Origin: Phycisphaerae bacterium
GTDB lineage: Bacteria > Planctomycetota > Phycisphaerae > Phycisphaerales > UBA1924
Assembly: GCA_030429705.1 (NCBI GenBank)
Contig: JAUIES010000002.1
Location: 726,818-790,817 of the forward strand
Direction: 5' to 3'
Length of the DNA: 64,000 nucleotides
Of this stretch, positions 25,358-41,069 are shown one piece after another (the stretch's first letter is position 1; the number at the start of each line of letters is the position of its first letter). Under the pieces are notes generated by a model, which was not told the DNA's origin, did not search any database, and saw only the letters and a list, made by a program, of their open reading frames with translations. The translations under genes and the position numbers were made by a program.

Positions 25358-25483
25358 TTCGGTCGCGTTCGAGACTTGCGTGGTGCTCGACTTCTGGAGG
25401 TGGCGGCCCGATCGGCGATCGTTTGGATCGATGCTGATTCGGCGTTGATCGAATCGGCTCTTGAAGGGGCGACACCTGTTCTT

Positions 25484-25707
25484 GCGTCGATCAAATCTGG
25501 TCTTGAACAGGTCAATTCTGGTCTTGAATGGATCAATTCTGCTCTGGAATTGGCCAATTGTGCTTCTGCATCGATCAATTCTGTTGTTGAATTGATCAAT
25601 TCTGTTCTTGCATCGATCAATTCTGCTCTTGAATTGGCCAATTCTGTTCCTGAATTGGTCAATTGTGCTTCTGAATTGGCCAATTGTGGTGTTGCATCGA
25701 TCAATTC
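25484..25707. repeat. 21-bp tandem array of AT-rich palindromes (array 1)
   Basis: Eleven units start exactly every 21 bp at 25484, 25505, 25526, 25547, 25568, 25589, 25610, 25631, 25652, 25673 and 25694. Each has a 14-bp core of the type GAATTGATCAATTC, GAATTGGCCAATTC or GCATCGATCAATTC; the copies at 25589 and 25631 are perfect palindromes. The plus strand is open through the array (frame of 25280-25879) with heptads like SALELIN, and the minus strand is also open, giving AELIDAR-like heptads. No ribosome site or ATG clearly starts either frame. The codon choice (AAT, TCT, TTG) is unlike the neighbours. Whether the array codes for a coiled coil or is a non-coding binding array is unresolved. 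The rest of the gap 25177-26039 holds no recognisable gene. Confidence 0.75.
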
Positions 25708-26039
25708 TGCTCTGTCATCGAGCGATCAACATGCAACATCGGCCCCCCCATCGCTTGCGCCGCCCGGCCCGATCGTGGCTCACGCGTCATCACGCAAGTT
25801 TTTATTCGAGACCACACCGATTGTGGTGGGTGGTGTAGTGCAGCCAATCTACAAACTCTGGCATTTGATCCAGTTATGAGTCAAGTAGTCGGTAACCGAA
25901 CCGCCACTGCCGGGTGGTCATCGCCCACACCGGTGCGCACGTCAATTCTCTCGCTATACTGAATCTCGCCCAGCGCGGTCCAGAGCCTTGGATACAGGAA
26001 ATCCTGTTCAGTAATACGTTAAGTGACTTGAGGTGAATC

Positions 26040-26744
26040 GTGGCCGCTGAGAACGAGATCCTTTCATACTTCGATATGTGCCAGAGGGAAGGCACTTCAC
26101 TCCAACGCGGCATGAATTTCCGACTCCATGGCGGGCATTCCGTCTTGCTGATGTCAGTTCGGCGAAATGCGCCTTATCAAGATAAAGTGCGAGATGATGG
26201 TGCAGTTCTGATTTACGAAGGCCATGATCATCCTCGGACACCTGAAACACCAAATCCAAAGATTCTGGATCAGCCTGAGTTTTTGCCAGGTGGCGGCCCC
26301 ACGGAGAATGGAAAGTTCCATCATGCAGCTCAGGAATTCAAAGCCGGGCGTAAAGCGCCGGACCTGATCCGTGTGTATGAGAAACTCCGAAAAGGCATCT
26401 GGAGCTACAACGGGTTTTTTCACCTCGTCGATTCGTGGCTTCAATCCGACGGCTCACGTCAGGTCTTTAGATTTCGATTGGAGGCAATCGAGGAAGCCCA
26501 GGATGAATCTGCAGCGGTGGATACTTTGTACCGCGAAGTGAAGCATCGACGTATAATTCCAACTCATGTCAAGTTGGAGGTTTGGCAACGAGATGGTGGT
26601 AAGTGTACTATGTGTGGCTCTACGAACGAACTTCATTTCGATCACATTTTGCCATACTCCAAAGGAGGTACATCGCTCAAAGTTGAAAATATTCAACTGC
26701 TATGTGCCAGGCACAACCTTCTGAAAAGTGCTCGAATAGAGTAG
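26040..26744 (+). CDS. SRA/YDG-like plus HNH nuclease (modification-dependent restriction type)
   Basis: 234 residues from GTG 26040 (GAGGTG upstream). The N-terminal half resembles an SRA/YDG domain, which reads modified bases in flipped-out form: GTSLQRGMNFRLHGG and DDGAVLIYEGHD. The C-terminal HNH nuclease is clear: a CxxC pair (CTMCGSTNE), LHFDHILPYSKGGTSL with the catalytic His, then ENIQLLCARHN. Such proteins cut DNA carrying modified cytosines (type IV-like). No methyltransferase partner is adjacent. Gene and downstream DNA are AT-richer than the surrounding chromosome, suggesting acquisition. An orphan HNH with another ligand domain is the alternative. Confidence 0.72.
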   Translation: MAAENEILSYFDMCQREGTSLQRGMNFRLHGGHSVLLMSVRRNAPYQDKVRDDGAVLIYEGHDHPRTPETPNPKILDQPEFLPGGGPTENGKFHHAAQEFKAGRKAPDLIRVYEKLRKGIWSYNGFFHLVDSWLQSDGSRQVFRFRLEAIEEAQDESAAVDTLYREVKHRRIIPTHVKLEVWQRDGGKCTMCGSTNELHFDHILPYSKGGTSLKVENIQLLCARHNLLKSARIE

Positions 26745-27364
26745 AAATCGAACTCATTTTTGAAGTATGTGTTCTACCCATTCATCGTATATCTCATACA
26801 AAGTAACTGTCATCTTAAGCATTGTTGAATTTTGGCAATCAAGTGTATTGATCGAAAATATCGCTGCGTATCGACTTACACTTAGTAGGGCATCACAGGG
26901 CGTGAACCTCGCCATGCCAAGCATGAGCCTGTCATGCTACCGCTCCGATGATGATCAGACTCTCCATCAAATGCAAGTACCGTCATACAGCACAATCTGT
27001 GGCATCGCAGCTTCCTGCGCCACACGTTGCTGACGCTGAATCCCACGAAGGTCGCTTTAGCGAGGACATCCTTACTCGCTACGACATCCATGGGCGGCCT
27101 TAAGACTGATTTGTAGCCACTGAGGATCGTTAGTATAAATGAGAAGACGGCTCCAAAATAGCGCGGAATCTGCGCGAGAGCACTTCTTTCCTCGATGAAC
27201 GTTCATATTTTCAACGCTCAATCATTGTGGGCCGATACCTCCACCCGGCGTCTGAGCGCTCGGCCATCGTGGCTGGCGGGGGCGCTGTGTGTTGTATCGC
27301 AGTCACTGTTGCTGGCGGCCGCTGCAAAAGCCCGGCAGGCAACACCATCAAACAAGGAGCCGTT
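26745..27364. other. AT-rich intergenic stretch, no gene recognised
   Basis: About 620 bp between the nuclease and the fibronectin-like gene. It is clearly richer in A+T than the flanks up to about 27130. Around 27029-27103 a short plus-strand frame ends RYDIHGRP at a TAA; it looks like a leftover gene fragment but is too short to identify. A longer open frame feeds into the next gene from 27227 but lacks coding character; the likely real start of that gene is at 27365. Confidence 0.5.
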
Positions 27365-28012
27365 ATGGCCAGTGTTCTTCCGAACTCACGCGAACAAACC
27401 ATCTCATGGTTCACCGAACGCATCGACGAATGGGCCGCCAAAGCCTCGGCCATCGGCCTCACCGCAGCCCAGGTCACGGAACTTGCCACCCGCCTCGCCG
27501 CCGCCGAAGCCTCGTTCGATACCGCGGTCGCCAGCCGCATCGCCTCCAAAAACGCAACCGTCAACTTCTACAACGACACCGACGATCTCAAAAGCTACGG
27601 GGCCGACCTGATCAAGGTCATCAAAGCGTTCGCCGAGTCGTCCGACGACCCGAGCGTGTACGCGACGGCCTCGGTCCCGCCGCCGGCCCCCCCGACCCCG
27701 GCCGGCGCCCCGCCGCAACCGACCGAACTGACCGCGACGCTCATGCCCGGCGGCTCGCTCCGCCTCGGCTGGAAGGGCACGGTGAGCCAGTCGGCCTACT
27801 TCAGCATCTTCCGCAAGGCCGAGGGCGAAACCTCGTTCACCATGCTCGACTCGACCGACGAGAAGTTCTTTGAAGACTCCTCGATCCCCGCCGGGGCGAA
27901 CACGGTCGTCTATTACATCCAGGCTCGCCGCGATGAGTTCCGCGTCGACTCAAACTGGTTCCAGGTGTCGTTCGGCGCGACCGGTGCGACGAGCATCGCG
28001 CTGGCCGCCTGA
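27365..28012 (+). CDS. Helical plus fibronectin-type-III-like protein, unknown function
   Basis: 215 residues from ATG 27365 with a strong AAGGAGCC site; the longer frame upstream is rejected. No signal peptide. Residues about 1-90 are mostly helical (ISWFTERIDEWAAKASAIGL). A Pro-rich linker of about 20 residues follows (PPPAPPTPAGAPPQP). The C-terminal ~95 residues look like a fibronectin-III or Ig-like beta-sandwich (LRLGWKGTVSQSAYFSIFRK, then VVYYIQARRDE). Role unknown; it is GC-rich like the native genes. Followed by a strong terminator. Confidence 0.7.
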   Translation: MASVLPNSREQTISWFTERIDEWAAKASAIGLTAAQVTELATRLAAAEASFDTAVASRIASKNATVNFYNDTDDLKSYGADLIKVIKAFAESSDDPSVYATASVPPPAPPTPAGAPPQPTELTATLMPGGSLRLGWKGTVSQSAYFSIFRKAEGETSFTMLDSTDEKFFEDSSIPAGANTVVYYIQARRDEFRVDSNWFQVSFGATGATSIALAA

Positions 28013-28042
28013 GTCTGTCATAACACAAAGCACGGTGGCCAT

Positions 28043-28085
28043 GAGGGCGGTGTCAGGAGGTGACGCCGCCCTCGGGCTTTTTGTT
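28043..28085 (+). terminator. Rho-independent terminator
   Basis: A long hairpin, GAGGGCGGTGTCA / TGACGCCGCCCTC (12 of 13 pairs, 5-nt loop), is followed by GGGCTTTTT. It lies 30 bp after the fibronectin-like gene. Confidence 0.9.
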
Positions 28086-28200
28086 GTTGAACAACCAGAC
28101 ACCGCCTCAAATCGATCGCCTGGGCGCCCAGCCCCGCCCGCCGACCGACTAAACTCACACGCCGGGCCTGAAGCCCGCGCGATTGGTCGAGGAGGTCGAT

Positions 28201-30840
28201 TTGTCCATTTCTGCATTTGCCCGCATCGTGGGCCGCGACCGCCGACCCAAGCCCGCTTTCGACTTCTCACGCTGCAATCTGCTCAGCGACCTTCCATTTA
28301 CGCACCTCAATGTGCCAAACCCCGAGCAGCGGGCCGCGTGGCTCAGCCAACTTGACGAGATGGGTGTGCGGCTGTTCCCACCCCCCTTCGGCCATGCGGT
28401 CGCCATCCTCAGCGATATCGACGATGCCGACCGGACGCGGACCGACGCCTATCACACGCAACTCGTCACCGAGCACGGGCTCGACTTTGGCGACTCGATG
28501 TGGCTGTACGGACGGACCTATGCACTCGAAGAATCGAATCCGGCTCGGACGCAGCCGCTGCACACGATCCCAGGACTCGGCATCATCCATCCGAGCGGTG
28601 ACCCTGATGCCTGGACCAAATCCGACCTGAGCGTCATCCGCTCGTACCGCGAGATGATCGCCGGGTGTCTGCGCGGCCAGTACGATCATTTCCACGCGTT
28701 CCTGCCCGCGGGCTCGCGGATCGCCTGGCTCAGGAATCCGACCGTCTGCGGGGCTGACGCGGTGTTCACACCCGGCGCACTCGAACACGAAGGGCTCGGC
28801 ACGACGGCCGAGATGCGCGTCGCCGGCCTGGGTGTGGTTGGCACCCTGGCTGCGACCCGAGCCGTCCGCTGTGCGTCGGTCACGGGGCGCGACCCTTCGA
28901 CTTTTGATACGACCCCCCCGAGGCATGTGATGGACTTTGCCCCTGGTAGCGACGACGGGGCACAACCCACATTTGGCGATGAGAGCGAACAAAGTGTCTG
29001 GTTGACACCCGCGCGAAGCATCGGTGCGACCAACACGCTCAATCATCTCTGGCTGACCGACGAGATTCGCATTGTGTGCGAAACGCCCGAAGCGGCGGCT
29101 CAGGTCCGAGCGCTCGCGGTCGCCAATGTCAATCGATCGATGGTGCTCGACACGCTACGCGAACTGCGCCAGACCTGGAACATCGAAACGAGCCTGATCA
29201 CCGAGCACTCGGGGTATTGTTTCTTCAACGAGAGATCACTCGAATACCACACGAGACTGGCTGGCGAACAATGGGCCAAAGCGTGCACCGACAAACCAGA
29301 CACCGTTGCAGCCACACGGATCGGCAACGCTGAAGGACCAGACCACTTCGTGGCGATCGCTGATGATCCTGGCTCGTTTGCCTGCTTCTTGCCCGAACTG
29401 ACGAACGAAATTGGTTTCCGGTTCGTCAATGCGGGGGGGCTGACGGGCTCGCCCGATTACAGCTATGATGCGTCTGATATCGTTGCTCCTTCTCGCACAC
29501 GCAGCGACGCAGGTCTCTATATCTGCCGGCGCACCATGCCAAATCTGCCCGATGATGTTGATCATCAGGATCGTGTCCTCAAACCGAACCGCGCCCCGAG
29601 TTTTGGGCACCGTCTCCGCCGCTTGTACGAACTCATGGCAGACCACGAGCGACGCATCTGGCCGATCTACACGCACCTCGGTAGCGTTCAGCCAATGACC
29701 GAGTTACCCGAGCCCTATCTCGATCAGGATCCAATCCGCGAACTACAGGATCGTGTCTATGGCATCACTGGCACCCACAATCCTTCGAGCCGGTGCTGGT
29801 TCACGCGTGGCACGGGGCTTTGTGAACATGCGCTCCTCATGCAACGCATCGCCTCGCACATCGATCAACCCGATGCAGACTCGATCATCATCCGCAAATG
29901 GCACGATGATGTACTCGGTACAGACCTGCCGGTCAGCATCAACCAGACTTATGGCCTGACCTTTCTCGTCGATAACTTGTCGAAGGCTCAGGTCATGCTT
30001 GAAGACAAGACAGTCCTGGAACTTGCGCGATTTGATCATCCGGACGGGCGATGGGTCACGCTGATGCCGTCGATCATTCGTGAAGTTGTGTTCAATCGTG
30101 TGAACCCATTCGAGCGAGCAGACTCGCAAGCGAGCACGACAAGTGTTCGAGTGATTGCGCCTGACGATCTTGCGTTTCTTCGTTTGGAAAGCGAAGACGA
30201 TGCCATCGGAACAGCGGCATTCAAAGTCTCTTGGATCAACCCGGCCGGCATGCAAGGGTTTACTTATCATGCTGAGGCTCATGGGGAAGGCGACGGTCTC
30301 GCATGGCTCGTCGAAACGAACGACCGCGGGCGATTCGCCTGGGGCGATGCAGCGATTGTCGATTCGCTCGACGACCTGACCGCGTGGCGGCATGAGGTGA
30401 TGCCAGCGAGCGGCCAGATCACAGTGCCCTTCTGGGATATGGTGTGGTCGGCGGATGCGAGCCCCGGAGGACCGCTCCCAAACCGAGCCGTCAAACGCAT
30501 GAGCATGCTGGTGCGAGGCCGCGTGAGCGTGATGCAGGCGTCATTCATCCGGCCCAGTGCTGCCCAGTCTGATGTGCCAGCGAATGGAACAGTTGTGGCT
30601 GGCCGGGTCCCGAATCCGCGCTGGACCGTCTGGTTGCAGGATGAAGCCGAGAAGGAGCCGCGATCGACATCGCCCGACCCGATCGGGTGGTTTGCATTCA
30701 GCGGGGTCGATCATTCACGCTGCAGAGTCTGGGCGGAAACTGACACTGGTGAACGGATCGCTCCGCTGGGCGGTGAAGCGGTTGAGTCGGCCTGGAATCA
30801 AACGGCTCTGACCTTCCATTCACTCAATCAGTTGGGCTGA
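28201..30840 (+). CDS. Large uncharacterised protein, linked to a sulfotransferase
   Basis: About 879 residues. The preferred start is TTG 28201, which has AGGAGG 4-5 bases upstream; another in-frame TTG at 28183 is less well placed. No signal peptide. The N-terminal ~180 residues include AVAILSDIDDADRTRTDAY, GLDFGDSMWLYG and YREMIAGCLRGQYDHFHAFL, which faintly recall polysaccharide-deacetylase-like barrels with conserved acidic and His residues. The middle has CRRTMPNLPDDVDHQDRVL and an aromatic, His-rich segment (WFTRGTGLCEHALLMQRIAS). The end is beta-rich. No family is recognised with confidence. It precedes a sulfotransferase by 62 bp on the same strand, suggesting a role in modifying a carbohydrate, but this is inference. 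Confidence 0.75.
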   Translation: MSISAFARIVGRDRRPKPAFDFSRCNLLSDLPFTHLNVPNPEQRAAWLSQLDEMGVRLFPPPFGHAVAILSDIDDADRTRTDAYHTQLVTEHGLDFGDSMWLYGRTYALEESNPARTQPLHTIPGLGIIHPSGDPDAWTKSDLSVIRSYREMIAGCLRGQYDHFHAFLPAGSRIAWLRNPTVCGADAVFTPGALEHEGLGTTAEMRVAGLGVVGTLAATRAVRCASVTGRDPSTFDTTPPRHVMDFAPGSDDGAQPTFGDESEQSVWLTPARSIGATNTLNHLWLTDEIRIVCETPEAAAQVRALAVANVNRSMVLDTLRELRQTWNIETSLITEHSGYCFFNERSLEYHTRLAGEQWAKACTDKPDTVAATRIGNAEGPDHFVAIADDPGSFACFLPELTNEIGFRFVNAGGLTGSPDYSYDASDIVAPSRTRSDAGLYICRRTMPNLPDDVDHQDRVLKPNRAPSFGHRLRRLYELMADHERRIWPIYTHLGSVQPMTELPEPYLDQDPIRELQDRVYGITGTHNPSSRCWFTRGTGLCEHALLMQRIASHIDQPDADSIIIRKWHDDVLGTDLPVSINQTYGLTFLVDNLSKAQVMLEDKTVLELARFDHPDGRWVTLMPSIIREVVFNRVNPFERADSQASTTSVRVIAPDDLAFLRLESEDDAIGTAAFKVSWINPAGMQGFTYHAEAHGEGDGLAWLVETNDRGRFAWGDAAIVDSLDDLTAWRHEVMPASGQITVPFWDMVWSADASPGGPLPNRAVKRMSMLVRGRVSVMQASFIRPSAAQSDVPANGTVVAGRVPNPRWTVWLQDEAEKEPRSTSPDPIGWFAFSGVDHSRCRVWAETDTGERIAPLGGEAVESAWNQTALTFHSLNQLG

Positions 30841-30902
30841 ACCGCGCCCGGCTAGACTTGTTTGGAACAACCGTCCGGGCACGACTCGTCATCGGAGAGA
30901 CC

Positions 30903-31781
30903 ATGGGCATCTTGAGCAAACTGACAGGGCGCAACGAACAAGTGGAAGCCAAACCAATATCCAAAACGGGAAAAGCGACGCGTCCCAACTTTGTCATCTG
31001 CGGCGCCCCGCGAAGCGGCACCTCTTCACTGCGGTACTACATGCGCGAACACCCCGATCTCGAATTCATCGGCGGCAAGGACTTTGAACCGATCGGCGGG
31101 GAAGAGGTCGGGCTGCCATTTAACAGCCCGTTCGTTGCCCACACCCATCGAGCAGCAACGCTCGATGCCTATGACAAGGTCTGCACGCGCGCTGCAGGCA
31201 AGTATGACTACATTGGTCTGTCGGTGCGATACGCGTTGTACTACCCGCATCTCATGCACAATCTCAAGGACCATCTGCCGGGCGCGAAATTGCTGTTTAT
31301 CTTACGGAATCCGATCGATCGCGCGCGGTCGTCTTACACATACCTGGCGCCTGAGAAACGGAAGAAGACTTTCGACGAGCTCATTCGACTCGAACAGGCC
31401 GATGCCCAAGAGCAGGCGAAGTTTGTGAATCGCGGCCAATGGAAGAATCTGTTCAAACCAGGCGGGGAAACCAATGCCGTCATTGACCGCGGTATCTACG
31501 CCCCCTGCATGAAACGGATCTTTGACATCTTCCCCCGCGAGCAGATCCACATCATCAAGTTTGAAGATTTCAAAGCCGATCCCAACGCCGAGTTGAACCG
31601 CGTTTGCGAGTGGCTTGATCTCAAGCCACACACATTCGAGCGAGTCTCCGAGGTCAAAGGCAAAAGTGTCGAGACCGATGTCATCTCGCCTGAAACCCGT
31701 CAGTATCTCAGCGAGTATTACGCTGAATTCAATCAGCAACTCTGGGACCTGCTCGGCTGGGAAGGCGAGCCTTGGAGTTAG
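30903..31781 (+). CDS. Sulfotransferase
   Basis: 292 residues from ATG 30903 (GGAGAG upstream; an earlier in-frame start is not supported). The PAPS 5'-phosphosulfate loop FVICGAPRSGTSSL (about 30-43) and the 3'-phosphate motif LFILRNPIDRARSSYTY are diagnostic. It transfers sulfate from PAPS to an acceptor, most often a carbohydrate in heparan-type relatives such as this one. No signal peptide; acts in the cytoplasm or at the membrane. Probably cotranscribed with the large protein upstream. Converges with lpxB. Confidence 0.92.
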   Translation: MGILSKLTGRNEQVEAKPISKTGKATRPNFVICGAPRSGTSSLRYYMREHPDLEFIGGKDFEPIGGEEVGLPFNSPFVAHTHRAATLDAYDKVCTRAAGKYDYIGLSVRYALYYPHLMHNLKDHLPGAKLLFILRNPIDRARSSYTYLAPEKRKKTFDELIRLEQADAQEQAKFVNRGQWKNLFKPGGETNAVIDRGIYAPCMKRIFDIFPREQIHIIKFEDFKADPNAELNRVCEWLDLKPHTFERVSEVKGKSVETDVISPETRQYLSEYYAEFNQQLWDLLGWEGEPWS

Positions 31782-31809
31782 AACCGGTCGGATTCGTCAA
31801 CAAGGCCGA

Positions 31810-32994
31810 CTAAGTCGAACTGGGTACCGGGACGGGGGTGAACGGTTCTTTCTGCGTCAGTCCGGCGATGCTCTCGATCACATCGGCTGCACCTTCAGCG
31901 GCGTTCTTGCCCTCGAAGAGCTTGGCGATCTGCCTCAAGGCCTCGCGTTGTTTCTCCGCGAGTTCGGGGCGTTCGAGCAGACCGACCGCTTCATCGACGA
32001 TGCGGTCCGCCCCCCCGAAGTGCGGAATGAGTTCCGGGACGATCTGTTGACCTGCGATGAGATTCGGCAGGCTGAAGAACTTGGTCTTGACCAACCAACG
32101 CCCCAGCAGGTTGTACATCAAGCGACTGAGTTTGTACACGATCACCATCGGCTTGGCTTGACGAGCGATCTGCAACGTGACCGTACCCGACACAACCAGA
32201 CACAGATCGGCCCAGCGAATGGCAGCATCCGTCTGCTTGCTGACAAACCGGAGCGATTCCGGCCAGGGTTCACCGGCAAGTTCGCGAATGGTCGATTCGA
32301 GATCAGGCCTGGTTGCCGCGACGACACCGGCGATGTGTGGGTGCTCCGCTGCAAGCCGGCGATACGCCGCCATAAGGAGCGGGAAATTCTTCCTGATCTC
32401 AGCCGGGCGCGATCCCGGCAGAAGAGCAATCTGCGGCGACCCGTTCGGCCAATCGGCAATCTGTTCATCGAGCACACTGAGGTCGAGAGGCTGATCGAAG
32501 AGCGGATGACCGACGAACCGTGACCGCACATTGTGCTCGCGAAACCAATCTTCCTCGAACGGCAGAACACAACAGACGAAATTGCTCAGCCGGCGCAATT
32601 TCTTTACGCGCCAACTCGCCCATGCCCAGACCTGCGGCGCGACCAGGTGCACGACCTTGGCTCCTCGTTCACGGGCCATTTTGCAGATCGGGAAGTTCGC
32701 TGCTGGTGAATCGACTGGCACATGCACCGTAATGGGGTGTTCATCAAGCCACGCGGCGATGCGGGCGTTGATCTTCTTGTGCTCGCGAATTTTGTCAATG
32801 CCGGGCACGCCCATGACCGCATCACGACCGGTTTCTTCGACGATTGTTGCGCCGGCGGCTCCCATATTCGGGCCGCCCCACGCATACATCGCCAGATCAG
32901 GATGACGACGACGCAACTCGGCGATAACCGCTGCAGCATGGTCGTCGCCTGAGGGCTCGAATCCGGTCAACAGAATCGCAGGTGATTCGCTCAC
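31810..32994 (-). CDS. lpxB: Lipid-A-disaccharide synthase
   Basis: 394 residues from GTG 32994. GT-B fold with LpxB segments: ILLTGFEPSGDDHAAAVIAE, VHLVAPQVWAWASWRVKKLR, CCVLPFEEDWF, FVGHPLFDQ, IALLPGSRPAEIRKN, CLVVSGTVTLQIA and the membrane-binding NLIAGQQIVPELI. It condenses UDP-2,3-diacylglucosamine with lipid X on the inner membrane face, giving the substrate for LpxK. It stands alone on the minus strand between a sulfotransferase and galE. Confidence 0.95.
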   Translation of the reverse strand: MSESPAILLTGFEPSGDDHAAAVIAELRRRHPDLAMYAWGGPNMGAAGATIVEETGRDAVMGVPGIDKIREHKKINARIAAWLDEHPITVHVPVDSPAANFPICKMARERGAKVVHLVAPQVWAWASWRVKKLRRLSNFVCCVLPFEEDWFREHNVRSRFVGHPLFDQPLDLSVLDEQIADWPNGSPQIALLPGSRPAEIRKNFPLLMAAYRRLAAEHPHIAGVVAATRPDLESTIRELAGEPWPESLRFVSKQTDAAIRWADLCLVVSGTVTLQIARQAKPMVIVYKLSRLMYNLLGRWLVKTKFFSLPNLIAGQQIVPELIPHFGGADRIVDEAVGLLERPELAEKQREALRQIAKLFEGKNAAEGAADVIESIAGLTQKEPFTPVPVPSST

Positions 32995-33123
32995 GCGGCA
33001 TCGAAGACGCTCAAACGCACCAAGTCAATCTCATCGCACCCGCAGAGTGCCGACATTGACCTATCGTCCTGAACCTGAACCGGACTTGACGACCACCTGA
33101 TCCGGAGATTTGGAGGCCCCTCG

Positions 33124-34173
33124 ATGAACATTCTGATCACCGGTGGCGCAGGCTACATCGGCTCGCATGCGGTTCAACGACTCCTCCGAGAAGGGCACAC
33201 AGCAATCGTTGTCGACGACCTTTCACGCGGCCACCGTGAGGCTGTCAATCAGCTCGACGCGCACGCTGACGGTCGGCTCTACTTCTATGAATCCTCGGTC
33301 GGCGATGGGACGCGCATGGAGCGGCTCATGCTCGACCATGACATCGATACGGTCATGCACTTCGCCGCCCTGGCCTATGTCGGTGAGAGTGTCGAGCAGC
33401 CGTTGCGCTATTACCACAACAATGTTTCGTGTGGCATCGAGTTGCTTGCTGCCTGCGACCGCGCGGCTGTAAGCCGATTTGTATTCAGTTCAAGTTGCGC
33501 GACCTACGGCGAACCGGGCGACGAACACATACCGCTGACCGAAGAGTGCCCCCAGTCACCGGTCAGTCCGTACGGCCAGACGAAACTGGACTTCGAACGC
33601 ATCCTCGCAGCATGGTCGACATCTCGTCAGATCGCGAATGAACCGGTAGCTGTTGCCATGCTTCGATACTTCAATGTCGCAGGTGCCGATCGTTCAGGAA
33701 CACTCGGCGAGGACCATGCGCCTGAGACGCATCTCATCCCTGTCGCGATTGAAGCCGCTCTTGGCAAGCGAGACGGCATGGCGGTCTTCGGCACCGATTA
33801 CCCCACCCCAGATGGCACCTGCATTCGCGACTATGTGCATGTCGAGGATCTCGTGGATGCCCATGTTCGTGCGATGGATCGCATGCAACTGGGAACACCA
33901 CGAGCCTACAACATCGGTATGGGACGCGGATTCTCTGTCCGAGAGGTCTTGGCAGCAGTCAAGCGTGTGACGAATGTTTCGTTTCCAGTCCGCGAGGAAC
34001 CACGCCGAGCGGGCGACCCTGCTCGGCTGTTCGCGTGTGCCGATCGAGCACGCAACGAACTTGAGTGGAACACCACAGTCAACGATCTTGAAACCGTGGT
34101 TGAATCGGTCTGGCATTGGATGCAGCAGCATCCAGATGGTTATGCATCTGTGGCAGCATCCACAAAATCCTAG
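33124..34173 (+). CDS. galE: UDP-glucose 4-epimerase
   Basis: 349 residues with GGAGG upstream. The NAD-binding motif ITGGAGYIGSHAVQ opens the protein; the SDR catalytic Ser-Tyr-Lys set is in FVFSSSCATYGEPGD and SPYGQTKLDFER; AMLRYFNVAGAD and GTCIRDYVHVEDLVDAH follow. It interconverts UDP-glucose and UDP-galactose for surface glycans. It is divergent from lpxB, and its stop overlaps the convergent next gene by 4 bp. Confidence 0.95.
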   Translation: MNILITGGAGYIGSHAVQRLLREGHTAIVVDDLSRGHREAVNQLDAHADGRLYFYESSVGDGTRMERLMLDHDIDTVMHFAALAYVGESVEQPLRYYHNNVSCGIELLAACDRAAVSRFVFSSSCATYGEPGDEHIPLTEECPQSPVSPYGQTKLDFERILAAWSTSRQIANEPVAVAMLRYFNVAGADRSGTLGEDHAPETHLIPVAIEAALGKRDGMAVFGTDYPTPDGTCIRDYVHVEDLVDAHVRAMDRMQLGTPRAYNIGMGRGFSVREVLAAVKRVTNVSFPVREEPRRAGDPARLFACADRARNELEWNTTVNDLETVVESVWHWMQQHPDGYASVAASTKS

Positions 34174-35090
34174 TGCGTGCCGATGACCCGGACGACGAGC
34201 GATCTCGTCCGCCCTGCTGCAACGCGAAGACCGGTCAAAGTGCTTTGTGTTCGCACGCGAGCCAGCGAATGCGTTGCCTGTTCACTTGCAAGCAAGACAG
34301 CATCACTCGAAAGCTCGACGAGTCGCACGGACACCTCGCCGGTCACGACGCGCATTTCATCGACATCATCTTCCTCAAATGCGTGTCGATTTGCATCAAA
34401 CGCCTGTCGATAGGTTGACGCTGCATTGCGCAGGCTGTCGACTGAATCGTCGATTGCTGCCGAGTTAATCGCGTCACGAACACCATTCAGTTCGCTCTCA
34501 AGCGATTCACGCGCGTCGAGGATGCGCTCGCTTCGTCCCTGCAGTAGCACCGGTATCGTGACGCCAGCGAGCGGGCGGACCGACCGCATTTCATGTTTCT
34601 GAGCAATCGAACTGGGCGCAGACCGCACAACCATGGCGTCATGCCGTGCAGCGAATCGGTCCATGCCTGCTGCGACGGGAATGGTCAGCGCCGGATCAGG
34701 CCCGCCGCGCAAAAGGTCATGCGCGAGCGCTTCGAGATAGGCGGACTCCGACTCGTGCTGACCCTGCTCGAGCAGAATCCTCAGCGTGGACCACAATGGA
34801 GACGAGAAAATCTCGGCGTGTGCTTCTGAAACATCTGTGGTCGGTACATCGCCGTCGAGATCTGCCCCGATTATGCCCGCCGTCCAAAGCGGAATCGACC
34901 AACGCCACTGATCGACCAGCGAAGCATATCGCGGAGCATGTTCGACGAGTTGCTCGGCGCGCGAACGCGCTCGCGGACCGACGGGTGCAGGCGCCATCGT
35001 GACCGCGCGATCGGCAAGCAACAAGGCGACCATCGCTGGCGCCTCGCGGGTGGTCATGTGATAGGGGCTGACGACGAGGTCAAGACTCAT
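34170..35090 (-). CDS. Uncharacterised alpha-helical protein paired with a hydrolase lipoprotein
   Basis: 306 residues; its ATG overlaps the stop of the hydrolase gene by 4 bp (translational coupling). No signal peptide or membrane span is evident. It is mostly helical and Ala/Glu/Arg rich, with segments such as SERILDARESLESELNGVRD and EMRVVTGEVSVRLVELSS. No family is recognised. The tight coupling suggests it works with the upstream hydrolase. Confidence 0.65.
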   Translation of the reverse strand: MSLDLVVSPYHMTTREAPAMVALLLADRAVTMAPAPVGPRARSRAEQLVEHAPRYASLVDQWRWSIPLWTAGIIGADLDGDVPTTDVSEAHAEIFSSPLWSTLRILLEQGQHESESAYLEALAHDLLRGGPDPALTIPVAAGMDRFAARHDAMVVRSAPSSIAQKHEMRSVRPLAGVTIPVLLQGRSERILDARESLESELNGVRDAINSAAIDDSVDSLRNAASTYRQAFDANRHAFEEDDVDEMRVVTGEVSVRLVELSSDAVLLASEQATHSLARVRTQSTLTGLRVAAGRTRSLVVRVIGTH

Positions 35091-36439
35091 GGCCGCGTCA
35101 CCGACGCTGCATCAGGCTTTGGTTCCGGCTCTGAATCGACCGAATGGTCCGGCTCGACGAGATGTTCATCGAGCCAGCGCATGACACGCACCGTTTGTGC
35201 GTTGAGCGTGATGAAGAGCAACTCATGACCGACCGGGAACACCCATCGTTCTGGTTCTCCCAGGCGGCTCCACAATTGGTCGCCGTATTGTGCAGGCACA
35301 GCCTTGTCTGTCGAACCGTGCAGCATCAAGATCTTCTTATCACGCATCTGCGGCGCAAGGTTGTACGCATCCAGATGAGCGTGTTCGAGATAGGCCTCGT
35401 TGAGTGCAGCCATGAACTCTTCTCGCTCTGCTCGGTCTGGAATATCGTTGCCCCAGTCAAACTGAATCGCCTTCACCCACGATGCGTAGTTGCTTTCTTC
35501 ATTGGTCATAAGAAAGTTTGACCCGCCAGCGATATAGACAATCGCGTCGTACAGATCGGGCGTTCTCGTGGCGATTGTTGTTGCAGCAATCGCCCCCCCG
35601 CTCATGCCGACCAGAACATGTTGCCGCTCAGCGAGCTCCGGACGCAGTGCGTGCACGCGCTGAACACCGGCTTCGATTGCATACGCTGTTTCTGCGGCTC
35701 GATCACCGAGTTCATGAGCGATCGCCTGGGCTGCGATCGACAGGTCTTGACGATCAATCTCGAACTTGGTGTGCTCGGTGAATCGGCTCGGGGGTGCCAA
35801 GAGCCGCAAGACCGACCAGCCATGCTGTTGGCTGATCTCGACGAAACGATCGTTGACCGGTTCTGGCACGCCGAACAACCCCGGCGCAACGACGAGAAGC
35901 CCTCGCGATTCATCGGTCGTCGCGTCGTAATACGCAAACCAACTGCGCTCGATCTTGACAACCGTGAAACCTTGTTTTTCGCGAACCTCTCGTCCCGAGA
36001 CGAACTTGAACATCTCGTTCGGCGTCGAACTGGTCGATCGCGCCGAACGGCCGTCATCGGACCGTTGCAAGATGAAGCAACCCGGCCCTTCGAGCACATA
36101 CTGATACCCTTCTTCTGCACCGGCGATACGAGCAACTGCCTGCGCATCAGCCCGATCGTCCGGATCTCCACGCAAAAAGTGATCAGCGCCCAGCCGAACG
36201 CCAGCCCACGCACTCAGTGGTCCCTCGATCGGGACGATCGCGCCCATCGCTTCGCCGTCGGACCACCTTACGGGCCAGATTGACCCCGACGGAACCGCAT
36301 CGTGCTCACGACTCGATGGCGTTGCATCTGGCTGAACGAATCGTTGCGGACTCGCGGTTTCGATCCGCAAGCAACCGGCGGACGCCACAGCGACGACCAA
36401 TAACAACGACAACCTGACCAGGCGTTGGGACGCATTCAT
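35087..36439 (-). CDS. Alpha/beta-hydrolase lipoprotein
   Basis: 450 residues from ATG 36439. The longer frame that runs on to 37003 is rejected because it overlaps the DUF368 gene and lacks coding character. The signal peptide ends in the lipobox VASAGC (Cys 23), predicting a lipoprotein. The hydrolase fold carries the nucleophile elbow VGMSGGAIAATT, then LMLHGSTDKAVP with the acidic residue and FPVGHELLF with the catalytic His. Substrate unknown; acts at the outer or inner membrane. Coupled to the following gene. Confidence 0.8.
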   Translation of the reverse strand: MNASQRLVRLSLLLVVAVASAGCLRIETASPQRFVQPDATPSSREHDAVPSGSIWPVRWSDGEAMGAIVPIEGPLSAWAGVRLGADHFLRGDPDDRADAQAVARIAGAEEGYQYVLEGPGCFILQRSDDGRSARSTSSTPNEMFKFVSGREVREKQGFTVVKIERSWFAYYDATTDESRGLLVVAPGLFGVPEPVNDRFVEISQQHGWSVLRLLAPPSRFTEHTKFEIDRQDLSIAAQAIAHELGDRAAETAYAIEAGVQRVHALRPELAERQHVLVGMSGGAIAATTIATRTPDLYDAIVYIAGGSNFLMTNEESNYASWVKAIQFDWGNDIPDRAEREEFMAALNEAYLEHAHLDAYNLAPQMRDKKILMLHGSTDKAVPAQYGDQLWSRLGEPERWVFPVGHELLFITLNAQTVRVMRWLDEHLVEPDHSVDSEPEPKPDAASVTRP

Positions 36440-36485
36440 TGCGAAGATCGTATAGTGGCGGCGACACTGAACCGATTCATCTCTC

Positions 36486-37517
36486 GTGAAAACTGAACCC
36501 GCACCAAACTCGAACCCCTCCATGCCCAGCATACCCACGCTGCTGCGTTGTTTGCTCGGCGGCGTGCTCATGGGTCTCGCCAACCTCGTCCCCGGCATCA
36601 GCGGCGGGACGATGTTGGTCGCAGCAGGTGTATATCGCCGGTTCATTGATGCTGTTTCGGATGTTTCGAGGCTCCGGTTTCGTCTCGACACGCTGATGGT
36701 GCTCGGTTCAGTCGTGTTCGGTGCTGTAGTCGCGATCGGTGCCGGATCAGGGCTCATCAGCCTCGCTCTTGAACACGCCCGCTGGGTTGCGTTCAGCGTC
36801 TTCATCGGCTTGACCTTGGGCGGGGCACCAATCCTGTGGGCCATGCTTCGGCCTTTGAACGCCCGCAGCGGGCTCGCTCTGTTGCTTGGATTCGCCGCGA
36901 TGGGTGCATTGGTTTTTTTCCAAACCAGCAATACCGCAACTGGCCCGGTTGATGCGGGCGCTTTTCGACTGTCACTTGCCGGTGCGGCTGCGGCTTCAGC
37001 CATGATATTGCCCGGAGTCAGCGGCGCCTACCTGCTCCTCTTGCTCGGGGTCTACGAAACAGTCATCAACGCGATCAAGGAGACCGTCAAAGCAGCAGCC
37101 GCGCTTGATCTGGAGGGCATGACCGCACAACTCGGTGTCGTGATCCCGATCGGCATCGGCGTTTTGATCGGTGTCGTCGGCGTGAGCAACTTTCTTCGAA
37201 TCGTCCTGCACCGCTATGAACAGGCAACCCTCGCGTTTCTGCTCGGGTTGTTGCTGGCTGCCCCCCTCGGTCTTTATCCGTTCGTGCGTGGTGTGCCTCC
37301 CGAGATCGGTCAGACTGTTCAAGGTGAACTGGTCACTGAAGAAAATCTGGCTGCGTTTGAAGCCAAAGACTGGAACACTGAACGGTTCAGCCCAGGTGCT
37401 GGCCAATTGGCAGGTGCCTTTGGCTTGGTCATTGTCGGCATCGGTCTGACACTCGGTATTGCTCGACTTGGTGGACCCGAAGAGAGGGATCAACAACCCG
37501 CGACAACCGACGACTGA
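36486..37517 (+). CDS. DUF368 / PopT-like undecaprenyl-phosphate translocase
   Basis: 343 residues; GTG 36486 or a later ATG at 36522 could start it, with neither having a good ribosome site. About 9-10 membrane segments. The DUF368 signature is LLRCLLGGVLMGLANLVPGI followed by SGGTM, repeated in the second half as ASAMILPGVSGAYLLLLLGV. Members of this family (PopT) have been reported to recycle undecaprenyl phosphate across the inner membrane for cell-wall and surface-polymer synthesis. Divergent from the hydrolase lipoprotein; stops 1 bp from convergent ftsY. Confidence 0.88.
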   Translation: MKTEPAPNSNPSMPSIPTLLRCLLGGVLMGLANLVPGISGGTMLVAAGVYRRFIDAVSDVSRLRFRLDTLMVLGSVVFGAVVAIGAGSGLISLALEHARWVAFSVFIGLTLGGAPILWAMLRPLNARSGLALLLGFAAMGALVFFQTSNTATGPVDAGAFRLSLAGAAAASAMILPGVSGAYLLLLLGVYETVINAIKETVKAAAALDLEGMTAQLGVVIPIGIGVLIGVVGVSNFLRIVLHRYEQATLAFLLGLLLAAPLGLYPFVRGVPPEIGQTVQGELVTEENLAAFEAKDWNTERFSPGAGQLAGAFGLVIVGIGLTLGIARLGGPEERDQQPATTDD

Positions 37518-37518
37518 C

Positions 37519-38442
37519 TCACTCGTCTTCAGCGAACATCGCGTCAATGAACTGATCAGGATCGAACGGCTGAACATCGGCTGGCGTTTCGCCGACACCT
37601 ACAAACTTGACCGGCAGATCGCACGATTCGCGAACAGCGATCACGATGCCACCCTTGGCGGTCCCGTCGAGTTTGCTCAGAAAGATCCCGGTGACACCAG
37701 CAGACTTGCCAAACTCTTCCGCCTGACGCAGCGCGTTTTGGCCGCTGGTTGCATCCAGCACAAGCAATACTTCGTGTGGCGCCCCCTCGATCTGCTTGGC
37801 AACGACGCTCCGCAGTTTGCTCAGTTGCCGCATGAGTGGGTCTTGTGTGTGCAATCGACCGGCGGTATCGAGAATGAGGACATCAACGCCGCGGGCTTTG
37901 GCGGCTGCACACGCATCAAATGCGACGGCCGCGGGGTCACCGCCCTGCATGCCTTTCACCACTTCGACACCGAGGCGTTCAGCCCAGATCTCCAGTTGGC
38001 GGACGGCTCCTGCTCGGAAGGTGTCACACGCACCGAGCATAACCGTCTTGCCCTCGTCTCGCATCGCGCCACAGAGTTTGGCGATGCTCGTGGTCTTGCC
38101 CACGCCGTTTACACCGGTCACCAATATGACCGTCGGCCCTTGTTCGGCGAGATGGAGTGCCCGGTCGGCGTGCGGCCACATGGACTTCAACTCACGCTTC
38201 AGATAATCGAGAACATCTTCACCCTTGGTCAGTTTGCCCGCTCGAAAGTCAGTCCGAACGCCATCGATCAGGCGGGCCGTCGCCTGAACTCCCACATCTG
38301 ATTCAATCAATCGTTGTTCAAGTTCACCGATGAGGGCTTCGTCGAGTTTGCGCCCGGTCAAGAGTGACCGCAGTTGCCCGACGAAACTCTCGCGCGTTCG
38401 CCCGAGCCCCTTCTTCAGTTTTGAGAACACGGATTTGATCAC
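37519..38442 (-). CDS. ftsY: Signal recognition particle receptor FtsY
   Basis: 307 residues, the NG-domain-only size without a long acidic A-domain. N-domain helices lead to the GTPase: G1 VTGVNGVGKTTSIAKL, CDTFRAGAVRQLEIW, LDTAGRLHTQ and G4 SKLDGTAKGG. It docks SRP-ribosome complexes at the membrane for cotranslational insertion. The last gene of the ribH-nusB-ftsY run, 3 bp after nusB. Confidence 0.97.
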   Translation of the reverse strand: MIKSVFSKLKKGLGRTRESFVGQLRSLLTGRKLDEALIGELEQRLIESDVGVQATARLIDGVRTDFRAGKLTKGEDVLDYLKRELKSMWPHADRALHLAEQGPTVILVTGVNGVGKTTSIAKLCGAMRDEGKTVMLGACDTFRAGAVRQLEIWAERLGVEVVKGMQGGDPAAVAFDACAAAKARGVDVLILDTAGRLHTQDPLMRQLSKLRSVVAKQIEGAPHEVLLVLDATSGQNALRQAEEFGKSAGVTGIFLSKLDGTAKGGIVIAVRESCDLPVKFVGVGETPADVQPFDPDQFIDAMFAEDE

Positions 38443-38445
38443 GAA

Positions 38446-38919
38446 TCAGGCCTCGCTGTCTTTCGCCAGAGATGCTGCCACGCGCTTGTGAATAGCCGAG
38501 AGCAGGCCGTTCACGAAACTTGGCGACTTGTCGGTGCTGAATGCCTTGGCGAGTTCCACAGCCTCATTGATCGCAGCCCGAGGGGGGGTTTTGCCTTCGA
38601 TCAACTCGTGAAACCCGAGGCGCAGAATCGCCCGATCAATCGCCGCCTGCCGATGGGCCGGCCACTCGGGTGCCAGTTCCTGCATCATACGATCCGCCTC
38701 GTCGCGGCCCGCATAGGCAGCCAGCGCCAGATCGATGGCTTTGGCGTACTCCTTGTCCTTGAACGAACCATTCTTCTGATCAAACTGCGGGTCATAGTCT
38801 TCGAGCCGAGGCGCATCTTCGATCGACGCTCGTATCGACTCGAGATCGCTCTCGCCGCGTGCATCCAGTTGATACAACGCCAGAAGGGCCAGCCGACGAA
38901 TATCACGGGGTGATGCCAT
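38446..38919 (-). CDS. nusB: Transcription antitermination factor NusB
   Basis: 157 residues, all-helical. RRLALLALYQLDARG at the start and IDRAILRLGFHELI, AINEAVELAKAFS and FVNGLLSAIHK toward the end are the NusB core. Acts with NusE (S10) on boxA of rRNA operons. Its start overlaps the ribH stop, so the two are translationally coupled. Confidence 0.96.
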   Translation of the reverse strand: MASPRDIRRLALLALYQLDARGESDLESIRASIEDAPRLEDYDPQFDQKNGSFKDKEYAKAIDLALAAYAGRDEADRMMQELAPEWPAHRQAAIDRAILRLGFHELIEGKTPPRAAINEAVELAKAFSTDKSPSFVNGLLSAIHKRVAASLAKDSEA

Positions 38920-39452
38920 CAGCCTTGCGCTCCGGTCTTGTCGTTGGGATGAATCGAAAGTCGGTGAACGAGTCCTGCCGCGGTCTGCGGCGACTGGGCT
39001 CCGGCTTCGATCAGGTCGATCGCCCGGATCGACTCGATGACGGCGAGCATGGCGTCGGCGCCCTTGTTGCCTTTGGTGCCGCCCGCACGCTCTTCTGCCT
39101 GGGCCCGCGTGTCAACGGTTAGCAGCCCAAAGGCGACCGGGACTCCTGTCGAACCAGTCACACTCGTCAGTCCGCGAGCAACCGCTTCGTTGATGTATCG
39201 ATCGTGACTCGTGTTCCCTCGAATAACACAGCCGAGTGCGACCACGCCGCGATACAACCCGCTTTGGGCGGCTGCATGACTGATCGCGGTCAACTCGTAC
39301 GCGCCCGCTGTCTCGAAGATCCCGAGGGTCGAGGCATCGCCGCCGGCCTCGGCATAAGCCCGCACGGCTCCCTCTTCGAGGGCGCGCGTGATCGAGTCGT
39401 TGTAACGGCTCACAACGATCGCGATGGGCGGCATGGGTTGATTGGTCATCAT
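38919..39452 (-). CDS. ribH: 6,7-dimethyl-8-ribityllumazine synthase
   Basis: 177 residues, slightly longer than usual. AIVVSRYNDSITRALEEGA and ETAGAYELTAISHAAAQSG line the active site, and GCVIRGNTSHDRYINEAVARG is the phosphate-loop/catalytic segment. It catalyses the penultimate step of riboflavin synthesis; members form large capsid-like shells or pentamers. First gene in ribH-nusB-ftsY. The tail after residue about 155 is not conserved-looking. Confidence 0.95.
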   Translation of the reverse strand: MMTNQPMPPIAIVVSRYNDSITRALEEGAVRAYAEAGGDASTLGIFETAGAYELTAISHAAAQSGLYRGVVALGCVIRGNTSHDRYINEAVARGLTSVTGSTGVPVAFGLLTVDTRAQAEERAGGTKGNKGADAMLAVIESIRAIDLIEAGAQSPQTAAGLVHRLSIHPNDKTGAQG

Positions 39453-39483
39453 CGGTCCGCGATGGTAGTGCCCCGCGCTGGCA

Positions 39484-40518
39484 ATGTCTGCACAAACCGC
39501 CCCGCTGTTGGGCGGCTTGGTGCTCTACCATCCGCCCGTGCGAACCAATGTGCTGCGCATCGCGTCCGTCCTTCGTCTCACGCGGGTATCCACGGCCTTC
39601 GCGGCGGTTGCCGATGTGTGGTTTGTGATCCTGTGGTCGCGGCACGGGCAGGGTGAATTGCCGTCGCCGGCGCTCGCCGACACCAACCTCTGGATTCTGC
39701 TCGGCGGCGGAGCCTTGGCTGCTGCCGGGCTGTACGCCTTCGGCACCTGCCTGAACGATATCTTTGACCAGCACCGCGATGCGCAGCTCCGGCCGGGCCG
39801 ACCGCTCGCGTCCGGGCATCTGCAATATGAAACCGCGGTTGTTGCGACCGCGGTCACCATGATCGCAGCCGTCCTGGGCGCGGCGACCTTCGGGACGGTC
39901 GGTGTCGTTCTGACGCTGACGCTGCTCCTGGCGATTCTTGTGCTTTCTGCAACGGGCAAGTTCATTCCCGGGATCGGCCTGGTCCTGCTGAGCCTGATCT
40001 ATGCGGGGCACATGTTTGTCCCCAACATCAACCTTGTGTTTGTGTGGCCGGTGTGGCTGGTCATGACCCACGCATTGGTGGTGGCCGGGCTCGCGCATGT
40101 GCTCGGTCGCAAGACCCCCCCGCTGACGCGCCGGGCGATTGCCTTTGCCGCGGGCGGCTGGGTGCTTGCCACGATCGGCCTGTTTTCATTGGCATCGATG
40201 GAGACCGGGATGCGTGGCCTGAGCCCATTCGCCCACGGCGCGGTCGGCCCGATCGCATGCGTGGTGCTCATCGCGATCTACACAACCATCGTGGTGCGCC
40301 GGGCGCGGGCGGTCGGGCGCGGGCCGCGGCTTGACGAGAAGATCAAACGGTACGGCTCGATCTGGCTGAGCCTGTATGCGTGCGCGTGGCTCTTTGGTGC
40401 AGGGCTGACGGGCCCCGGGTTCATCATGGCGGGTCTTGCCACGACTGGCATTGTCGGGATGGTGGTGCTGCGTGAACTCTACGGCCTGGTCGAACATCCG
40501 GTGGGATACCGGCACTAG
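39484..40518 (+). CDS. UbiA-family prenyltransferase-like membrane protein
   Basis: 344 residues; a start at GTG 39538 instead of ATG 39484 would give more room for the ribH promoter. About 8 membrane helices. The prenyl-diphosphate motif NDIFDQHRDAQLRPGRPLAS is the classic UbiA NDxxDxxxD signature. The second aspartate-rich motif is less clear. Such proteins attach isoprenoid chains to aromatic rings for quinones, chlorophyll or haem, or act as related synthases; the substrate is not determinable. Isolated on the plus strand between ribH and a repeat patch. Confidence 0.85.
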   Translation: MSAQTAPLLGGLVLYHPPVRTNVLRIASVLRLTRVSTAFAAVADVWFVILWSRHGQGELPSPALADTNLWILLGGGALAAAGLYAFGTCLNDIFDQHRDAQLRPGRPLASGHLQYETAVVATAVTMIAAVLGAATFGTVGVVLTLTLLLAILVLSATGKFIPGIGLVLLSLIYAGHMFVPNINLVFVWPVWLVMTHALVVAGLAHVLGRKTPPLTRRAIAFAAGGWVLATIGLFSLASMETGMRGLSPFAHGAVGPIACVVLIAIYTTIVVRRARAVGRGPRLDEKIKRYGSIWLSLYACAWLFGAGLTGPGFIMAGLATTGIVGMVVLRELYGLVEHPVGYRH

Positions 40519-40605
40519 GCACCCGACTTGTTTTACCATCGCCAAGTTATTCTCAGAGGTCCGCTTTCATGTGTTCGGGCCTTGCCAGCGTGCGCCTGTA
40601 CTCTT

Positions 40606-40745
40606 CATCCGCGCGGATGAGCTCTGCACTCGCGCGAGTGGAGCGTTCATCCGCGCGCGTGCGCTCTTCATTCGCGCGAGTCGAGTGTTCCTCCGCGCGT
40701 GTCGAGCCTCCATCCGCGCACTTGGAGAGCACATTCGTGCGGATC
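40606..40745. repeat. 21-bp tandem array of GC-rich palindromes (array 2)
   Basis: Seven units start exactly every 21 bp at 40606, 40627, 40648, 40669, 40690, 40711 and 40732. Cores are CATCCGCGCGGATG and CACTCGCGCGAGTG (the first two are perfect 14-bp palindromes), and variants. Degenerate units lie at about 40585 and 40753. Two plus frames and the minus frame stay open; the frame starting at ATG 40569 (AGAGG upstream) gives heptads like ARVERSS and runs to 41003 with a non-repeated tail. Coding status is unresolved. It follows the UbiA gene by 87 bp, and the remaining part of the 40519-41201 gap holds hairpins and a gene remnant. Confidence 0.75.
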
Positions 40746-40993
40746 AGGAGCGCAATTATGCACCTCGAACCCCGCTGCAAGCGTCTGAAAGCAGTTGACG
40801 CGCGTTTGTGCGACTTATCTGACCAAGCAAACGGGCCTTGGCCAATTGCGCCCCTGCCGTCCCCCCCCACCAATCAGGCCTGCGCAATAACCGCATGGCC
40901 CGCCGCCTTGCTCCAATGCGGACCTTGTTGGAAGGGGACAGAAGAGACCAGGGTTCAGGCACTTGACATGGGGCGTTCGGAGCCCGGTCTGCC

Positions 40994-41069
40994 GTGCCAC
41001 TGACCTGTCTTCAGGACAGTGCTCAGGCGGATAGTGAACACAGTGACGCGAAGACGGGGTCAGTGGCAC
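40994..41069. repeat. REP-like palindromic element, copy A
   Basis: A 12-bp terminal inverted repeat, GTGCCACTGACC / GGTCAGTGGCAC, bounds the unit. Inside, a hairpin at 40998-41021 (CACTG-CCTG / CAGG-CAGTG, loop TCTT) is the same type as the hairpin at 42661-42686, with matching flanks CCGTGCCACTGA and CAGTGCT. Probably a mobile REP-type unit. Confidence 0.6.

Follow-up and report, generated by a model that had tools for sequence, protein, structure and literature searches.

Tandem arrays that repeat at exactly 21 base pairs (bp), each with a core sequence of its own, lie mostly upstream of the genes of an orphan protein family in a Phycisphaerae bacterium and its relatives, and are almost absent downstream of them. 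Two of the arrays lie in a window of 64,000 nucleotides, the whole stretch analysed, from this bacterium (GenBank assembly GCA_030429705.1, contig JAUIES010000002.1; G000:C7:726818-790817 in our coordinates), whose genome comprises 3.49 Mb in 8 contigs. A first-pass annotation of the window had presented these two, here called arrays A and B, as a pair that shares a geometry; the arrays are a class and not a pair, and their link to a gene family was absent from that account. The period, the private cores, the lack of a codon-phase bias in the class and the one-sided link to the orphan genes are established, and low-GC (guanine plus cytosine) accessory genes, among them a Pycsar system and an HNH nuclease gene, stand between array and orphan gene at several loci.

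Two arrays were located directly upstream of members of the orphan family; array A lies 1.6 kb upstream of the window's own member. The family has 145 matches in 19 of 61 genomes, with up to 41 in a single genome. The scan covered 118 of these (at most 30 loci per search; 66 of the 118 come from genomes G023, G010 and G029 together), and 110 were placed after 8 had been dropped for an unmatched N-terminus, gene starts being set from tblastn alignments. A 21-bp array was found within the 700 bp upstream of 51 of the 110 loci (52 arrays of 6-14 units, GC 0.50-0.88, with a separate core in each), whereas a single one was found in 151 kb downstream of orphan genes. The same scan returned three more arrays further upstream and one within the orphan gene, and three upstream matches had periods other than 21. 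The array-bearing loci are spread over nine genomes, each a different genus. When five G023 members without a strong near array were rechecked over about 8 kb per side, four of them had an upstream array, with midpoints at 350 (weak, z 8.8), 3084, 3596 and 4470 bp, the last three behind other genes; none of the five had a downstream array in that span.

Similar results were obtained in the window's own genome. The first 823 kb scanned contained six 21-bp arrays at z>10, including A, B and one at L004 that had been chosen for its likeness to A; the strong arrays found there de novo, three in 731 kb, have a period of 21 or 42 and differing cores, and a further 400 kb added five more at z of at least 9.7. 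Two low-complexity GA tracts, a repeat of 18 bp and one of 15 bp, the latter within a likely gene, made up the remaining matches at z>10. For ten own-genome arrays, namely A and B (chosen beforehand by the first-pass annotation) and eight found in sampled stretches, the closest orphan gene is 0.3-13.3 kb away, and for seven of the ten it is within 5 kb (null mean 0.65; 0 of 5000 draws as high). By their coordinates, nine of the ten are on the upstream side of the orphan gene, array B being the exception. Conversely, when targeted stretches are counted, an array (in one case at z 8.2) lies no more than 5 kb upstream of 9 of the 12 own-genome members. Among relatives, G029 had one array found by similarity and two more in 288 kb scanned, and four others, sampled over 60-160 kb each, had one 21-bp match at z 10.3 (L064:18375-18500, G010); the weaker multiple-of-three periods in those four look like ordinary coding periodicity. 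A periodicity scan returning many arrays with diverse cores had been named as the result that would speak for a repeat class, and this is what was found in the sampled own-genome stretches and the targeted loci of relatives, in keeping with the suggestion that the geometry is kept without the sequence. In a separate locus (L081:11997-17179), two GC-rich 21-bp arrays (GC 0.72 and 0.77) were seen on both sides of a long open reading frame (ORF), presumably encoding a HAF-repeat protein; the array pair is 8-11 kb upstream of another orphan-gene copy.

Within the window, the following features are relevant, with the ends of the arrays uncertain by about one unit and no strand assigned to them.

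25475-25720, no strand: array A, about 11.7 units of 21 bp with an AT-rich core, the best units being GAATTGATCAATTC or GAATTGGCCAATTC plus a 7-bp spacer
40601-40768, no strand: array B, 8 units of 21 bp with a GC-rich core, CATCCGCGCGGATG plus 7 bp
27365-28012, plus strand: orphan gene 'fam' (L094), 215 aa, one of 12 matches in the genome
27211-27236, plus strand: flagellin-type promoter-like element TCAA-N18-CGAT, a pattern match 129 bp before the orphan-gene start
26040-26744, plus strand: HNH nuclease gene between array A and the orphan gene (Pfam HNH, 1.4e-8; a weak SAD_SRA match, 1.4e-4, is under the Pfam cut-off)
24802-25176, plus strand: fur-like regulator gene 5' of array A (Pfam FUR, 6.5e-23)
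39484-40518, plus strand: UbiA-like gene, followed by array B (Pfam match under the cut-off)

Both arrays are present where the first-pass annotation had located them, with a period of 21, with opposite base composition (GC 0.42 in A and 0.63 in B) and each after a plus-strand gene, the fur-like and the UbiA-like gene, respectively. The self-match is slightly better at a lag of 42 than at 21 (0.77 and 0.75 for A, 0.68 and 0.62 for B). The 14-bp palindrome with a 7-bp spacer that had been described for them holds for the best units, and the dyad symmetry of the unit profile exceeds that of column permutations (p=0.015 for A, p=0.017 for B), but no more than 2 of A's 10 units and 2 of B's 7 are perfect 14-bp palindromes, with a mean of 5.5 and 5.0 palindrome pairs per unit out of 7; even in these two arrays the palindrome is a tendency. 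The full layout of array, HNH gene, flagellin-type promoter and orphan gene is seen at array A. Array B, which lies downstream of the closest orphan gene, about 12.6 kb beyond its end, matches the class in geometry alone and may be either a remnant or an array that has been displaced. An ARAGORN call of a permuted transfer-messenger RNA (tmRNA; window 40665-41020, minus strand) overlaps array B; no family reached its gathering score in an Rfam scan of the whole window, so this is probably a false call. By sequence, array A is related to one other array in the genome, array C (C7:623.7 kb; L004:7609-7920), which shares its core with A at 79% identity, is situated between two convergent ORFs without a nearby orphan gene, and is either a displaced copy or a remnant. 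An ancestral array site beside fur was also considered and was rejected, since three loci (L010-L012) retain fur and have no 21-bp array at z>=9. Elsewhere in the window, an 18-bp repeat of about 6 copies is found at 14932-15040.

The exact period is what defines the class. The best period was 21 in 51 of 51 array-bearing upstream regions, and z reached at least 7 in 54% of upstream regions at period 21, compared with 1% at 20 and 4% at 22. The median z at 21 was 8.7 upstream and 4.4 downstream, and the upstream medians at 20 and 22 were 3.0 and 2.8. At loci without a near array, 21 was again the commonest best period, being the best in 11 of the 21 such loci that reached z>=5.5. The self-match peaks at lags of 21, 42 and 63, and lags of 3, 7, 10 and 11 give no peak; the lag-21 match over all positions is 0.66, so that units are about 66% alike. 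Across the 52 arrays, the match at lag 42 exceeds that at lag 63 in 39 (p=2e-4) and slightly exceeds that at lag 21 (p=0.04). Lag 84 gives no improvement on lag 63 (p=0.37), so that support for a super-period of two units is only partial.

The cores, by contrast with the period, are private. Among 51 arrays, only 4 of 1275 pairs have a 10-mer of their consensus in common, and a search for a motif shared among the cores found mild CG/GC enrichment alone. TA dinucleotides are depleted in the consensus units of the 52 arrays (3 seen, 14.4 expected from flanks). Two pairs of related gene copies within one genome are informative about how the cores change. In G020, two loci (L157/L219) encode proteins that are 88% identical and have array consensuses with one 8-mer in common; in G023, two others (L141/L155) encode proteins that are 67% identical and have array consensuses without a common 8-mer. 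It is thus unlikely that each array is read by its own cognate protein, as related gene copies have changed cores. When profiles were compared over the 1275 pairs, the G023 pair came out at the top with 0.549, the median being 0.400, and the G020 pair in 199th place with 0.440. In the G020 pair, the two loci are clearly homologous over the gene, the last 15 bp or so before it and about 50 bp beyond its end, and again over a stretch of 36 bp farther along; other related orphan-gene pairs have 230-510 bp of upstream DNA in common. These comparisons argue for homologous arrays with a rewritten core in one pair of the two, that of G023, and not in that of G020.

Across the class, dyad symmetry is clearly present as a tendency, though a partial one. 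It is significant (p<=0.05) by column permutation in 24 of the 52 arrays, with a combined z of 11.7, and against flanking 21-mers in 15 of the 52 (Fisher 1.6e-8). The idea that a symmetric 21-bp lattice is the invariant is therefore borne out for the period and only in part for the symmetry, for which covariation within units gave no further support (see below).

No Pfam match at E<=0.01 was found for three members of the orphan family, and no NCBIfam match above the cut-off; the protein has 77 relatives at E<=0.001, and three of the six relatives with a named organism belong to Phycisphaerales. It is modelled with helices at residues 9-25 and 34-93 followed by a fibronectin-III-like sandwich, with a mean predicted local distance difference test (pLDDT) score of 89 and a predicted template modelling (pTM) score of 0.51, which leaves the packing of the two domains uncertain. 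Phage tail proteins, too, give matches to the fibronectin-III-like fold. At the C-terminus, past a low-confidence tail, 80 of 105 translated copies end in AA (33 in LAA and 17 in MAA), and the window's copy ends in LAA. An AA ending resembles the ssrA degradation tag.

The orphan gene likely belongs to the flagellar (sigma-28, FliA) regulon, judging by the promoter-like element in its leader. The pattern T[CG]AA-N18-CGAT was found in 38 of 110 orphan-gene leaders (0.45 in shuffled sequence), with 0 and 1 matches at spacings of 17 and 19. It was likewise found at 7 of 20 Flagellin_N-domain loci (L245, L246, L248-L252; 0.0 in shuffled sequence; 20 of 24 matches were fetched), these seven coming from six genomes of six genera with one or two each, and FliA was above the cut-off in 6 of 6 genomes searched. 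The spacing of the planctomycete element is one base longer than that of the E. coli sigma-28 consensus, TAAAGTTT-n11-GCCGATAA (PMC2859248). A stricter element, T[CG]AAG[TC]-N16-CGAT, was present within 700 bp of only one array (K) of 15 listed, 13 of which are in the stretches searched. Among 20 loci with both array and element, the array ends 9-29 bp before the element in 7 and 133-274 bp before it in 12, and overlaps it in 1. Arrays at other genes with a flagellin-type promoter were looked for and not found, as none of the 20 Flagellin_N-domain loci has an array at z>=9. The arrays were also considered as multiple sigma-28 sites; this was rejected, as their most enriched k-mers lack the promoter core.

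The genes between array and orphan gene are low in GC. In the window, the region from array A to the orphan gene that includes the HNH gene (25740-27300) has a GC fraction of 0.504, compared with 0.586 for the window. At a G023 locus (L261:8708-12466), a Pycsar anti-phage system lies between a 21-bp array and an orphan-gene copy, with a PycC cyclase (1.6e-79), a PycTIR effector (1.9e-96) and two further genes beside them, one with a weak PycC match; this region has a GC of 0.604, compared with 0.706 around it. Also between array and gene in G023 are a 1001-aa protein with pentapeptide repeats and genes without assignment. At 51 loci without a near array, GC was lower upstream than downstream of the orphan gene (0.617 and 0.673; p=2e-8).

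The explanation favoured here, tentatively and with considerable doubt, is that the arrays form a sequence-tolerant 21-bp lattice upstream of the orphan genes that marks the outer edge of an insertion slot for foreign genes. As 21 bp corresponds to two turns of B-DNA, all units would face one way, and a symmetric, cooperatively binding protein could dock on the lattice, reading shape, symmetry or spacing instead of exact sequence. The cores might then change jointly under a constant period, and the array may take part in gene insertion beyond merely bordering the slot. In its boldest form, which is rather doubtful, this would be an insertion platform made of a sequence-free 21-bp lattice and a flagellum-regulon fibronectin-III-like protein, in up to some 40 copies per chromosome, framing slots for foreign (for example, anti-phage) genes, with the geometry selected while the letters are rewritten in concert.

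Several observations weigh against an insertion slot bordered by the lattice. No array at z>=9 was found within 700 bp upstream at 59 of the 110 loci, the fifth of the rechecked G023 members had none in the 4.1 kb upstream before its contig ends, and arrays B and C have no adjoining orphan gene. Low GC extends outside the slot: where the array is near, at 47 loci, the DNA beyond it likewise has a lower GC than that downstream of the gene (0.662 and 0.690; p=9e-4). Among the matches listed, defence families at E<=1e-10 were found in a few of 54 upstream ORFs (one per locus, sampled from the 59 loci without a near array, with 25 of 94 family rows covered) and in 1 of 47 downstream ORFs; the upstream matches were a type I restriction enzyme, PycC (from the same Pycsar locus), a type II/III methyltransferase and a kinase, an enrichment that is suggestive and not significant. 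At 8 loci, no clear array remnants were seen on the orphan-gene side of the inserted genes: the best scores, 19.1 (array G) and 14.8 (array D), were above those of their own shuffles, control regions scored up to 17.3 and real units 26-33. An array split by inserted genes was therefore rejected; insertion inside the array is unsupported, and the slot may simply adjoin the array and make no use of it. Double changes were complementary in 40 of 77 cases within a unit and in 35 of 78 between neighbouring units, and because the covariation within units shows no excess over this control, the symmetry belongs to the array and selection on each unit is unsupported. To these may be added two observations of a coding kind: array A is biased in codon phase (p=0.017; 0.51 for B), alone among the 15 listed arrays, three of which are also among the 52 upstream ones, and the 52 upstream arrays have slightly more open frames, counted over both strands, than their column shuffles (3.90 and 3.23 per array).

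The main rival, somewhat unlikely in itself, is that the array tunes the promoter from upstream, governing the strength or the switching of the flagellin-type promoter before the orphan gene, with the two-turn step allowing the number of units to vary at a constant rotational phase. It would account for the promoter-like element in the orphan-gene leaders, the window's copy included, and at the Flagellin_N loci, for the 7 of 20 arrays that end 9-29 bp before the element and for a unit number that ranges from 6 to 14, and it has a precedent in the GAA repeats of the vlhA promoters (PMC6258824). At several loci, however, kilobases of other genes separate array and promoter, which counts against simple promoter tuning, and the 12 arrays that end 133-274 bp off, the one that overlaps the element and the 20 array-free Flagellin_N-domain loci do not favour it either; with units only about 66% alike, most arrays would not be prone to slippage. 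It is less likely again that the arrays are a by-product, that is, functionless minisatellites that arise and decay in the gene-poor accessory regions where the orphan gene accumulates, with a 21-bp step of mutational origin. Cores that differ at all loci are consistent with such an origin, as is the clustering of arrays and orphan genes, mostly on one contig, and a 42-bp match above that at 63 fits unequal exchange; yet a single period is seen in nine genera, periods of 20 and 22 and the other multiples of three giving nothing comparable, and the strong one-sidedness (52 arrays upstream, 1 downstream) is unexpected under neutral slippage.

Two further rivals concern what the arrays might encode. 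That they are transcribed as RNA hairpins that end or block read-through into the orphan gene is quite improbable. The dyad symmetry and the depleted TA steps are compatible with hairpins, and one-sided changes on the sense strand leave G.T more often than A.C (99 and 69), a ratio that is weak because units are not independent. Many arrays lack a loop-forming centre, the best loop being 0-2 in 39 of the 52, and the 52 arrays show no strand skew. Most improbable of all is that the arrays encode unrelated coiled-coil or other heptad proteins, with 21 bp as seven codons. The codon-phase bias of array A and the slight excess of open frames speak for it; since most arrays are open in several frames on both strands, their resemblance to heptad genes is explained. 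Against it, codon-phase bias at p<=0.05 was found in 4 of the 52 upstream arrays, with p values near uniform (Kolmogorov-Smirnov p=0.17), there is no peak at lag 3, and A's minus-strand heptad translation had no relative among 5.8 billion proteins, with none of 7 candidates at E<=1e-5, a search made for array A and not for B. Heptad coding, to which clear, unrelated protein homologues of the two arrays would have reduced the shared geometry, is supported neither for the class nor by A's translation, and the remark of the first-pass annotation that the palindrome sits in a different codon phase in A and B has little weight because the class, A apart, has no codon-phase bias.

An element known by its period instead of its sequence escapes similarity searches, and a literature search over titles and abstract openings turned up no account of such 21-bp arrays. 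The tie to one gene family in nine genera makes the arrays testable. If they do border a slot, they would offer a handle on how planctomycetes acquire defence genes, and would bear on the question of whether proteins can recognise a helical lattice in place of a sequence.

Several known systems resemble these arrays in part. CRISPR (clustered regularly interspaced short palindromic repeats) and TIGR (tandem interspaced guide RNA) loci are regular arrays of partly palindromic repeats adjoining a gene. Here, however, the whole 21-bp unit repeats, the 7-bp stretch included, so that there are no unique spacers, and no nuclease partner was identified. Repetitive extragenic palindromic (REP) sequences and bacterial interspersed mosaic elements (BIME) disperse one common palindromic sequence as hairpins, whereas the cores of the present arrays differ from one array to the next. 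Integrons and other insertion hotspots gather variable accessory genes, defence genes among them, at a fixed position next to a conserved element; in the present case the border element is a tandem array of fixed period, and no integrase or attC-like element turned up, although no dedicated search was made. The iterons of plasmid origins are direct repeats spaced by close to two turns of the helix, private to each system and beside a gene, and the exact 21-bp step of the arrays is similarly close to two helical turns. The orphan gene is unlike a replication initiator, with its helical and fibronectin-III-like parts and no Pfam or NCBIfam match above cut-off, and it is present in up to 41 matches per genome.

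Another partial parallel is found in Mycoplasma gallisepticum, where, according to PMC6258824, GAA repeats precede the start site of the vlhA promoters by about 40 nt, and these promoters were considered active solely with exactly 12 repeats. In that system the unit is an identical trinucleotide everywhere, while the 21-bp unit varies per locus, and here other genes sometimes lie between array and gene. What the two systems may have in common is a large dispersed family with tandem arrays upstream of its promoters, in which geometry and copy number are suspected to be relevant.

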